33,387 nt of DNA from Acidobacteriota bacterium (GTDB lineage Bacteria; Acidobacteriota; UBA6911; RPQK01; JAPXNP01). Positions 179 through 3,820 of the stretch are shown piece by piece. Numbering within the stretch: the stretch's first letter is position 1; each line of letters starts with the position of its first letter. Position numbers and translations under genes: made by a program. The stretch is taken from contig CP070717.1 of the NCBI GenBank assembly GCA_020350445.1, forward strand, positions 4,997,354 through 5,030,740, in the 5' to 3' direction. Under the pieces are notes generated by a model. That model was not told the origin of the DNA and ran no database searches. It was given only the letters and a program-made list of their open reading frames with translations.

Positions 179-1129
179 TCAGCGGCTGGATTCGAGCTGC
201 AGCACCTCGGGCAGAGTCGGAATTCCCGCCCGGGCTCCAAGGTGGGTACACGCCAAACCACCGGCGGCATTGGAAAACCGCATGCAGCGTCCGACCGGCC
301 ACCCACTCAGGACCCCGTAGATGAAGGCACCATGGAAGACATCGCCTGCCCCGGTGGAGTCAACCGGCTCAATCGGGAATGCTGGAAACTGGAAGACTTC
401 GCCATCGACAAGAGCCGCTGAACCCTCTTCTCCCAGAGTGACTGCCACGAAGCCGGGGCAATACTTCGCCACCTCAATGAGGCCGCTTCTCCAGTCCTCG
501 GTCTGCGCAAACTGGGTAACAAAAGAGAGACTCGCGATCAGTAAGTCGACGTTCTTTATCAGGTGTTCAACCCCATAGGGGACCTTGTCGATATCGAGGC
601 AGACAGCCATCCCGGCTTCCTGCGCCCAGGCCGCAGCCTGCGTGGAGGCTGGCAAATCGTTTCCATCAACGTGGAGGATCTGTCCTTCGATCAACTGGGT
701 TCGATTCAGTTCGCCTTCATCGTAGCGAAGCCTGGCATCCTGGTCCCAAATGATTGTGCGACACCCTGTCTCACGGTCAACAATGATGAGTGAATGGTGG
801 CTGGTCGCACCCGAGACCACTTCAAGCACAACATCCATCGACTCACGGCCCAGGTCCCGCTGGACAAAGTCACCCAGATCATCACTTCCGACACGGCCCA
901 CATACCGGGTCTTCAGGCCATAGCGGGCACAGACCGAACAGGCAGTCGCAATCTGTCCACCGCCCATGCGCAACATCTTTTCCATCCGAACTTTGGTGTC
1001 ATGCTGCGGATATTCAGGCACACGGCAGACCCAGTCGACGGCATTCTCACCAAACCCAATGACCTGAAACGGACGGCCAGCCGGCAGGTCCAGCTCCAAG
1101 TAGACGTCATCCAAGAGTTTAATGTCCAT
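179..1129 (-). CDS. PfkB-family carbohydrate kinase (ribokinase-like)
   Basis: A 316-residue cytoplasmic sugar or nucleoside kinase of the ribokinase/PfkB fold. The N-terminal region has the GGGQIATAC substrate-lid segment (about 56-64), and the C-terminal PfkB signature DSTGAGDVFHGAF lies at 257-269, with D263 the expected catalytic base and the GAG anion hole before it. Length is normal for the family. The substrate cannot be read from sequence: ribokinase, fructokinase, adenosine-kinase-like and KDG-kinase-like members all look like this. It starts 24 bases after radC ends, so the two are probably co-transcribed. The start is the ATG at 1127-1129; its ribosome site is weak. Confidence 0.88.
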   Translation of the reverse strand: MDIKLLDDVYLELDLPAGRPFQVIGFGENAVDWVCRVPEYPQHDTKVRMEKMLRMGGGQIATACSVCARYGLKTRYVGRVGSDDLGDFVQRDLGRESMDVVLEVVSGATSHHSLIIVDRETGCRTIIWDQDARLRYDEGELNRTQLIEGQILHVDGNDLPASTQAAAWAQEAGMAVCLDIDKVPYGVEHLIKNVDLLIASLSFVTQFAQTEDWRSGLIEVAKYCPGFVAVTLGEEGSAALVDGEVFQFPAFPIEPVDSTGAGDVFHGAFIYGVLSGWPVGRCMRFSNAAGGLACTHLGARAGIPTLPEVLQLESSR

Positions 1130-1153: not shown

Positions 1154-1801
1154 TCAGAGTTCCCCTTCATCAGCGAAGCTGAAGTAGCGATAGCGGCCAA
1201 TAATAACATGGTCCAAAACCTGGATCCCGATCACCTTCCCCGTTTCGACGAGCCTTTGGGTAATCTGCCGGTCCTCCTTGCTGGGCCGGGGTTCTCCGCT
1301 CGGGTGGTTGTGAACGAACAGCACCGAGGCGGCCCCTTCTCGAATGGCCGGACGAAACACTTCCCTGGGATGAACTATAGCCCGCGTCAGAGACCCTTCA
1401 GATACACGCTCAATTCGCAGAACCCGGTTCTTCCCATCAAGAAGCAGTACCCAGAAGCACTCTTTACCCAGATCGATTGCAAGGGGCCGAAAATAGGAGA
1501 AGACTTCCGCACTCGAGTGGAAGGAGTGGTTCGGTCTCAGTTCAACTCGCCGCCCTCGACGGGTCATCTGGATGGCAGCGGCCAGCGCCAGGGCACGCTT
1601 CTTTCCGAGGCCTGCCTGACAGAGTTGATGGAAGCCGGCTTCCTGCAAACGCCGCAGTGATCCAAGCGCCTCCAGAAGACGACCTGCCAAACTTCGCGCA
1701 GCAGACTCCGACATCCCCGGTGAGATAACCAGGCTCAACAGCTCCCTGTCACTTAAACCATCCCATCCCAACTCAACAAGATTCGTACGTACACAGCTCA
1801 T
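1154..1801 (-). CDS. radC: RadC/JAB-domain family protein
   Basis: A 215-residue protein with the usual RadC layout: an N-terminal helix-hairpin-helix-like region (about 10-75) and a C-terminal JAB/MPN metalloprotease-like domain. The metal motif HNHPSG lies at 164-169, with the downstream Asp at D177. The usual E. coli-type HNHPSGD reads HNHPSGE here, with the acidic residue retained further on. The family was once called a DNA repair protein, but its biochemical role is unsettled. The start ATG (1799-1801) is supported by AAAGGAG five bases upstream. It lies 69 bases after the YheT-like gene and 24 before the PfkB kinase, all on one strand. Confidence 0.92.
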   Translation of the reverse strand: MSCVRTNLVELGWDGLSDRELLSLVISPGMSESAARSLAGRLLEALGSLRRLQEAGFHQLCQAGLGKKRALALAAAIQMTRRGRRVELRPNHSFHSSAEVFSYFRPLAIDLGKECFWVLLLDGKNRVLRIERVSEGSLTRAIVHPREVFRPAIREGAASVLFVHNHPSGEPRPSKEDRQITQRLVETGKVIGIQVLDHVIIGRYRYFSFADEGEL

Positions 1802-1870: not shown

Positions 1871-2884
1871 TCAGGTTCCGAGTGTTTCGAAAAAATCGAT
1901 CACCCGGTTCTCGGCCCAGGAGCGGTCCCGGTCGATCCCCCGGCGTTCTACGAACGCGACATGCCCTCCCCGCGGGGTCAAATGAAGGCAGAGGTTCGGG
2001 TTTCCAGAAGCCTTTTCGACGAGCGGGCGGGACGGTAATAGCGGATCATCCTGGGAGTGAATGATCAGCGTGGGGACTGCAATCCTGTCCAGCAGCGGAG
2101 CTGAACTGGCCTTGCGATAGTATTCATCAACCGTTGAGAAGCCCCCGAGCGGCACGGTAACGACTTCATCGAACTCCCGGATCGTCCGAACCCGTGCCAG
2201 ATGGTCCAGATCGACCCAGTTTTCAACAGAACCCGGATTCTGCAGGGTCAGTCTTCGCAGACGACCGAGATAGTAGTTCTTGTAGAGCCAGTTCGACCAA
2301 TGGTCAAACACGGGCCAACTCTCTGTCAGGTCCACCAGAGGAGAGATTACAGCGCCCCCCACGATTCGACCGGCAGCTTCGGCACCCAGTTCGCCGAGGA
2401 GTTTCAGCAGGATGTTCCCCCCCATCCATAAACCGACGAGAAAGAAGCTCTGCAACGTGTACCTGTTGCTCACCAGTTCGAGGATCTCCGCTACTTCATC
2501 ACTGCATCCAGCATGAAAGACCTTAGGCCGGACTCGATCGGGATTATGATTGTAGAGATCGAGAAGAATACTGTTCCAGCCTCGAACATAGGCCTTCTTC
2601 GAAAGGCCGAGCATGTAAGCGGACTCACTCGAACCCGCCATCCCATGAATGACAACCACCGTTGGTGCCGATGTCTTAACCGCGGCATACTTTACCTGCA
2701 CGGTAGAGTCGTCTCGAAGCTTCAGATTCTCCTGACGAATCGACTTCCAGCCCCAGTCGAAGGTCCTGCGCTGTCGGGCGCCAATCACGGTCTGAAGATG
2801 CCCCGTCGGTAGAAGGCGATGTGGCCGGAATGGCTTCTGCTCGAGAACCGTCTGGATCAGCTTGAAGTGATGCCCGTCGCTCAT
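1871..2884 (-). CDS. YheT-type alpha/beta hydrolase with the nucleophile serine replaced by tryptophan
   Basis: A 337-residue alpha/beta-hydrolase of the YheT/COG0429 group, recognised by the N-terminal FRPHRLLPTGHLQT segment, the oxyanion region VVIHGMAGSSES, and a C-terminal acid and histidine in HSQDDPLLPS and PRGGHVAFVE. The nucleophile elbow, normally G-x-S-x-G-G, reads VGLWMGGN: codon 153 (2426-2428) is TGG where TCG would restore serine. If this base is right, the protein has kept the Asp and His of the triad but lost the nucleophile. The start is the ATG at 2884, whose first bases form an ATGA overlap with the VanZ-like stop. Starting upstream at 3049 would overlap most of the VanZ gene and is not credible. 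The physiological substrate of this family is not settled. Confidence 0.85.
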   Translation of the reverse strand: MSDGHHFKLIQTVLEQKPFRPHRLLPTGHLQTVIGARQRRTFDWGWKSIRQENLKLRDDSTVQVKYAAVKTSAPTVVVIHGMAGSSESAYMLGLSKKAYVRGWNSILLDLYNHNPDRVRPKVFHAGCSDEVAEILELVSNRYTLQSFFLVGLWMGGNILLKLLGELGAEAAGRIVGGAVISPLVDLTESWPVFDHWSNWLYKNYYLGRLRRLTLQNPGSVENWVDLDHLARVRTIREFDEVVTVPLGGFSTVDEYYRKASSAPLLDRIAVPTLIIHSQDDPLLPSRPLVEKASGNPNLCLHLTPRGGHVAFVERRGIDRDRSWAENRVIDFFETLGT

Positions 2885-3255
2885 GCTTCTGGCCGGTTCT
2901 TCCAGACCCTGAGAATCCAATAGGATCCTAGAACCGCGACCAGCGCGCCAACCGAGTCCGCCAGCACGTCCTGGAAACTCGGATGCCGATTCGGCACAAA
3001 GGCCTGGTGGACTTCGTCGAGGACACCATACAGGGTCGCTGCGACCCACAGCCAGGGGACCACTCTGAGTTCCAGTTGCCCCTTCAAACCCTTTGTCCAG
3101 CCCCAGACCAGGGTCAGAGCGAACAGCCCGTATGCCAGAAAATGAGCGACGTAATCCGGGGCCAGATCGGCTCCAGGGGGATTACTCTTATGCGAAACAG
3201 TAAAGATCGCGACAGCCAGAACGAGCGTCGGAATCCAGTGAAGAAAATCCCTCAT
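2881..3255 (-). CDS. VanZ-like family membrane protein
   Basis: A 124-residue integral membrane protein with about four hydrophobic segments. The family motif sits in YGVLDEVHQAFVPNRHPS followed by QDVLADSVGA, which is the conserved D-E-x-x-Q-x-F-x-x-x-R ... D-x-x-x-N/D-x-x-G pattern of VanZ-like proteins. Vancomycin-cluster VanZ gives its name to the family, but most members are unrelated to resistance and have no known job. It sits in a tightly overlapped chain: its ATG shares bases with the TAA of the 55-aa gene upstream (TAATG) and its TGA with the ATG of the YheT-like gene downstream (ATGA). Confidence 0.85.
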   Translation of the reverse strand: MRDFLHWIPTLVLAVAIFTVSHKSNPPGADLAPDYVAHFLAYGLFALTLVWGWTKGLKGQLELRVVPWLWVAATLYGVLDEVHQAFVPNRHPSFQDVLADSVGALVAVLGSYWILRVWKNRPEA

Positions 3256-3422
3256 TACGCCAGCAGGTACATCAACCAGGCGAACAGCAAAGACCCCACC
3301 ACCATATAGCCCATAAGGGTGAGGAAGTACTTGATTCGCTCGGTCGTTTCAGACCGATTCACCAGTGAGAATACTGTCGCAATGCAGAGGGAGAGGATCA
3401 GAAGACCCAGGAAATGATTCAC
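3255..3422 (-). CDS. Small two-helix membrane protein (55 aa), hypothetical
   Basis: A GTG-started frame of 55 codons (MNHFLGLLILSLCIATVFSL at the N-terminus) between two real genes on the same strand. It has two hydrophobic helices, about residues 3-20 and 36-54, separated by a charged stretch NRSETTERIK that is probably the loop. Its GTG overlaps the TGA of the upstream DUF6677-like gene (GTGA at 3419-3422), and its TAA overlaps the VanZ-like ATG (TAATG at 3253-3257). Exact overlaps at both ends, together with the hydrophobic pattern, are the case for a real translated gene. I do not recognise a family. A role together with the neighbouring membrane proteins is inference. Confidence 0.7.
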   Translation of the reverse strand: MNHFLGLLILSLCIATVFSLVNRSETTERIKYFLTLMGYMVVGSLLFAWLMYLLA

Positions 3423-3781
3423 TGTTTCCTCCCCTGCGCGATATCGAAAGCATCCAGGACCAGGAGCATGTTGATCAGTCCGGCGGTATAGATAAAGGTG
3501 TTCCCGTATTCATAACCCAGCGACCGGATATCTCCCTGTCCCCAGCCAAGAACCTTTCCAATGATGTACGGAAGCCCGATCGCCGCATCTGCAAAGAAAC
3601 GCAGGAAACCGAAGAAACCGCTTTCGAGGCTGAACAGTTTCCCCTCCATGTAAAGCCCTAGAGCAAACAGTAGCAAGACGCCGACAAAGAAGACGGCAGC
3701 CCGCTTCCACTTATTGAGGAACAAGTGCCCTGCCCCGGGGACCAGCCAGGCAAAAACACAGGCTATAGCAGTCTTGGTCAT
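3419..3781 (-). CDS. DUF6677-like polytopic membrane protein
   Basis: A 120-residue protein with an N-terminal AWLVPGAGHLFLNKW segment, as in TM2/DUF6677-type small membrane proteins that carry a P-G-x-G-x-x-Y/F motif. Further hydrophobic segments lie at about 28-42 and 56-75 and near the C-terminus (YTAGLINMLLVLDAFDIA). The family name is from memory and its function is unknown. The start ATG at 3779-3781 is preferred: the longer frame from 3820 begins with a TTG that also forms the -35 box of a good promoter. A GGAG lies a few bases before the ATG. This is the first gene of the overlapped membrane-protein chain running left. Confidence 0.7.
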   Translation of the reverse strand: MTKTAIACVFAWLVPGAGHLFLNKWKRAAVFFVGVLLLFALGLYMEGKLFSLESGFFGFLRFFADAAIGLPYIIGKVLGWGQGDIRSLGYEYGNTFIYTAGLINMLLVLDAFDIAQGRKQ

Positions 3782-3790
3782 AAGCTCCAA

Positions 3791-3820
3791 ATGATATGGA
3801 GAATGTCCGATCCGGGTCAA
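3791..3820 (-). promoter_or_regulatory. Sigma-70-type promoter for the DUF6677-like/VanZ/YheT chain
   Basis: On the minus strand there is a TTGACC -35 (3815-3820), an 18-base spacer and a TATCAT -10 (3791-3796). The start of transcription would fall near 3784, only a few bases before the ATG at 3781, so the message would be nearly leaderless and the GGAG before the ATG would lie outside it. Either the promoter is real and the gene is read leaderless, or the true promoter is elsewhere. Confidence 0.45.

Follow-up and report, generated by a model that had tools for sequence, protein, structure and literature searches.

A tryptophan codon at the predicted nucleophile position of a YheT-type hydrolase gene in an Acidobacteriota draft genome

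The window analysed here is a stretch of 33,387 nucleotides from the genome of an Acidobacteriota bacterium (GenBank assembly GCA_020350445.1, contig CP070717.1, positions 4,997,354 to 5,030,740 of the forward strand). A gene for a YheT-type alpha/beta hydrolase lies at 1871..2884 on the minus strand, which an earlier note on this DNA had left unstated. Its frame is uninterrupted from an ATG at 2884 to a stop at 1871 and encodes 337 amino acids, in keeping with the clean frame that the note described; the start codon was placed by eye, from its ATGA overlap with the VanZ-like gene upstream (2881..3255, minus strand; PF04892, E 1.9e-11), which also adjoins YheT in relatives. Downstream lie RadC (1154..1801, minus strand; PF04002), found in the same place in relatives, and a PfkB-family kinase (179..1129, minus strand; PF00294), while a DUF6677 gene (3419..3820, minus strand; PF20382) lies on the other side of the VanZ-like gene; both the kinase and the DUF6677 gene belong to the cluster in relatives. 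The order DUF6677-VanZ-YheT-RadC-PfkB is common to the window and to three homologous loci, L002, L005 and L011. At two other loci (L004, 39-1463, and L009) the VanZ-like and YheT regions occupy one open frame of 487 amino acids, a possible VanZ-YheT fusion; alternatively, an internal Met could start YheT there.

The protein matches PF00561 with 51.5 bits against a cut-off of 25.8 (E 1.5e-13), which places it in the alpha/beta hydrolase fold, and matches the YheT model NF008218/PRK10985 over its full length (E 1.5e-44, 152.7 bits). Since the latter score falls below the NCBIfam equivalog cut-off of 267 bits, we assign the protein on its sequence to the wider YheT family and do not claim strict NF008218 equivalog membership. 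The earlier assignment to a YheT-type family holds, and sequence and gene order together are our grounds for regarding the gene as a YheT orthologue. A UPF0017 signature pattern is found at residues 239-280; it occurs in 65 of 137 sequences, this protein among them. A search of the same genome for another YheT copy, which might compensate, returned one match, the gene itself.

At the nucleophile elbow the minus strand reads GTC GGT TTA TGG ATG GGG GGG AAC, or V-G-L-W-M-G-G-N. The Ser of the GxSxG motif is replaced by Trp153 (TGG, 2426..2428, minus strand), exactly the codon and coordinates given in the earlier note, and neither Ser, Cys nor Asp stands in place of the nucleophile at this elbow. 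With Trp at the nucleophile position, we make no claim that the sequence as written encodes an active serine hydrolase. The remainder of the predicted catalytic apparatus is intact, as had been noted for the HSQDD and RGGH motifs: the triad acid Asp280 (2045..2047) and the triad base His308 (1961..1963) are both present, each conserved in 135 of 136 homologues with a gap in the other one, and the HG of the oxyanion loop (His80-Gly81, 2642..2647), found in all 136, is kept too; all three lie on the minus strand. The preceding residue, Leu152 (TTA, 2429..2431, minus strand), is also unusual, being Leu in none of the 136 homologues and encoded by a rare codon that accounts for 2.5% of the codons for Leu across 28 genes of the window.

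In a predicted model of the protein (mean pLDDT 68.7), residue 153 sits between a strand (147-152) and a helix (154-172), the position expected of a nucleophile elbow. The top solved-structure matches of this model are alpha/beta hydrolases, the best being an acylaminoacyl peptidase (Z 21.4, rmsd 3.5, 264 aligned); a search for solved structures by sequence gave none at E 0.001. The Ser-bearing protein of L005 was modelled for comparison, at the level of secondary structure.

Homologues were gathered from searches of the order, class and phylum, from a GTDB scan and from fetched stretches. Matches were obtained at 145 loci, and removal of 9 exact duplicates left 136 distinct homologues. This count takes in L017 and L018, whose matches are weak; some 19 of the matches listed by the phylum search, together with unlisted ones, stand outside it. 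Among the duplicates, L009 and L011 from the window's order were dropped as the same proteins as L004 and L005 from Acidobacteriota metagenome-assembled genomes, an identity that also points to Acidobacteriota as the lineage of the window. Every one of the 136 has Ser at the nucleophile column, and a single ATT in the tally of Ser codons probably reflects a shift caused by the gap in the alignment of L018 rather than a non-Ser elbow. Because Ser is universal here even though strict GxSxG is broken in 14 of the 136, at a neighbouring Gly or through a gap, Trp153 is, on this alignment, more than chance variation. The nearest relatives are the YheT orthologues of two same-family genomes, 52% identical to the window protein (L002 and L003); both have TCG at this codon, which bears out the earlier statement that the Trp codon lies one base from Ser. 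A protein search of a plasmid collection yielded no close match, its 18 records all falling below 60% identity.

We compared this departure with the state of the protein as a whole. Sixteen columns reach 95% conservation or more; the window protein keeps 15 of them and breaks only Ser153. When the rate of YheT was compared with that of L002 and L003, using five outgroups and with RadC, PfkB, VanZ and DUF6677 as controls, no acceleration was seen (|z| up to 1.25; in one comparison, 33 window-only and 29 ingroup-only changes in 323 sites). This negative relative-rate result speaks against relaxed selection. At conservation thresholds of 80-85% the protein departs from consensus more than most, its count being reached by 6 and 4 of the 136 others. 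Much of the departure at 80% is typical of the clade, because 7 of the 12 residues concerned (82, 111, 123, 205, 244, 252 and 282) are common to L002 and L003. The intact frame, the kept columns and the normal rate together make a long-standing pseudogene or a drifting pseudoenzyme unlikely from the sequence.

The distribution of the gene is patchy. With the thresholds used, YheT occurs in 9 of the order's 18 genomes and in 164 of 297 in a sample of the phylum, and it is absent from two genomes (G013 and G015) at 97-98% completeness; on this distribution, it is dispensable in the group. Inspection by eye of 16 other abhydrolase frames in the window's genome (PF00561) found Ser or Asp at the elbow of each, and the genome is therefore not generally losing these nucleophiles.

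The quality of the assembly bears directly on how the codon is read. The genome is a draft pseudo-molecule, 86% complete, whose contigs are joined by runs of 100 N; the window is one such contig, starting right after an N run, and codon 153 lies 2.4 kb inside it. The 16S gene is a fragment, truncated at a run of N (L149, 2406-2975), and a search of the genome for 23S found none. In the 530-loop region of the 16S fragment (L149, at about 2918) the sequence reads TAATCC, with an odd A-to-C at the fifth base, where the 16S genes of four relatives have A; this base lies about 60 bases from the contig end, and a consensus error there is possible. A high rate of substitution error on the contig is not supported by two of its proteins, a coarse test in which both stayed within the range of other genomes: ValS breaks 4 of 183 invariant columns (0-5 elsewhere, with one outlier of 65) and DnaK 2 of 295 (0-8 elsewhere). 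We conclude that the contig is not visibly error-prone, as far as its sequence tells; a single error may nevertheless be present in 33 kb. The ValS outlier, L202, is probably of a different ValS type. The ValS of L202 (genome G004) and the match in G003 are 39-41% identical to that of the window, as against 54-79% in others, which suggests that family f2 contains a ValS lineage of its own.

An artefact of the G-rich context was considered and rejected. G/C homopolymers are not in excess, the 9-G run in the 530-loop of the 16S fragment compares with 8-9 G in the 16S genes of relatives, and in the sister orthologue L003 an unaltered Ser codon is likewise followed by a run of seven G, so that the G-rich context of the elbow is native.

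We consider it quite probable that the gene is a normal Acidobacteriota YheT orthologue whose nucleophile Ser codon reads Trp through one recent, isolated base event, which would be an error in the consensus of the draft assembly or else a mutation that recently knocked out a dispensable gene. The retention of Asp280, His308, the HG loop, the frame and the rate, all of which an old loss should in time have let go, argues that the event is recent or not real; a recent null is plausible because YheT is dispensable in the group, and an error about equally so because the assembly is a draft of metagenome type. If made as written, the protein should fold but form no acyl-serine intermediate, and would thus be a dead hydrolase; that the event was recent and that activity is lost are both steps that we infer. 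Three findings sit less easily with a lone event: Leu152, likewise found in none of the 136 homologues and encoded by a rare codon, is easier to explain by a coordinated change than by an isolated error; neither ValS nor DnaK independently points to a poor consensus; and the protein shows more departures at the 80-85% thresholds than most of the phylum set.

The first form of this event, in which the organism has Ser and Trp is purely a consensus error, has somewhat less than an even chance in our estimate. The N-joined draft contigs, the incomplete genome with its broken 16S and no 23S found, the odd 16S base near a contig end and the active look of the rest of the YheT gene all point towards it; the position of the codon well inside the contig, the unremarkable ValS and DnaK, the lack of surplus G/C homopolymers, and the intact Ser codon of L003 in the same G-rich context point away. 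The earlier note had proposed that TCG in relatives would speak for an error. Ser was found in all of them and counts in that direction, but with the nearest only 52% identical the check is not decisive.

The second form, a strain-level missense mutation that killed a dispensable hydrolase and from which decay has not yet spread, is a credible though tentative reading. It accords with the patchy presence of the gene, including its absence from two nearly complete genomes, with the intact remainder and normal rate, and with the lack of any error excess on the contig. It would, however, require the most conserved residue to have changed by a transversion, a rare kind of mutation. Of the possibilities raised in the earlier note, recent inactivation and a single-base error both stand, while that of a pseudoenzyme, taken as an old or drifting one, is disfavoured by the frame, columns and rate described above.

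A functional pseudoenzyme, repurposed for binding or as a scaffold, its old active site filled by Leu152 and Trp153, is unlikely. Because Leu152 is unique and has a rare codon, there is some room for such a coordinated change, and the gene is under normal constraint and kept in its operon; catalytically dead proteins of the alpha/beta hydrolase fold, such as the NDRG proteins and neuroligins, exist elsewhere. Against this, a binding role would not require Asp280, His308 and the HG loop to be kept over large divergence, and none of the 136 homologues has a non-Ser elbow. In a pseudoenzyme, a catalytic residue would be lost across a clade in a gene under selection; the one genome of the genus analysed here has the loss, and the relative rate of its gene is normal. 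The more specific version of this reading, a genus-level YheT pseudoenzyme that binds a ligand or partner, with fold and operon kept and the elbow plugged by Leu152-Trp153, is more doubtful still. That the enzyme still works, through another nucleophile or some other mechanism, as the retained Asp and His might suggest, is very improbable, since the elbow has no Ser, Cys or Asp replacement and Trp is not known to act as a nucleophile in this fold.

In conclusion, Trp153 is real in the sequence and unique among the 136 homologues, and it most likely reflects a one-off event of little consequence; for now it amounts to a single unusual residue in a draft genome. Fixation of Trp in the genus, if it were found, would add a first elbow without Ser to the YheT sequences examined here, and the family would gain a natural control that lacks activity. 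A literature search by title found no paper on the YheT enzyme, its substrates or the UPF0017 esterase, and none on YheT among papers on pseudoenzymes.

The window protein shares with YheT/PRK10985 (NF008218) a full-length match, the HG loop, the catalytic Asp and His, the GxxxGGN frame of the elbow and the UPF0017 signature, and differs in having Trp for the nucleophile Ser and a score below the cut-off. The Acidobacteriota orthologues at L002, L005 and L011, at 46-52% identity and with the same gene order, all have Ser at the elbow where the window has Trp. As in NDRG proteins and neuroligins, the nucleophile is lost and the fold kept; in those proteins, however, the loss is clade-wide and divergence extends beyond the nucleophile, whereas in the window it concerns one residue in one genome.
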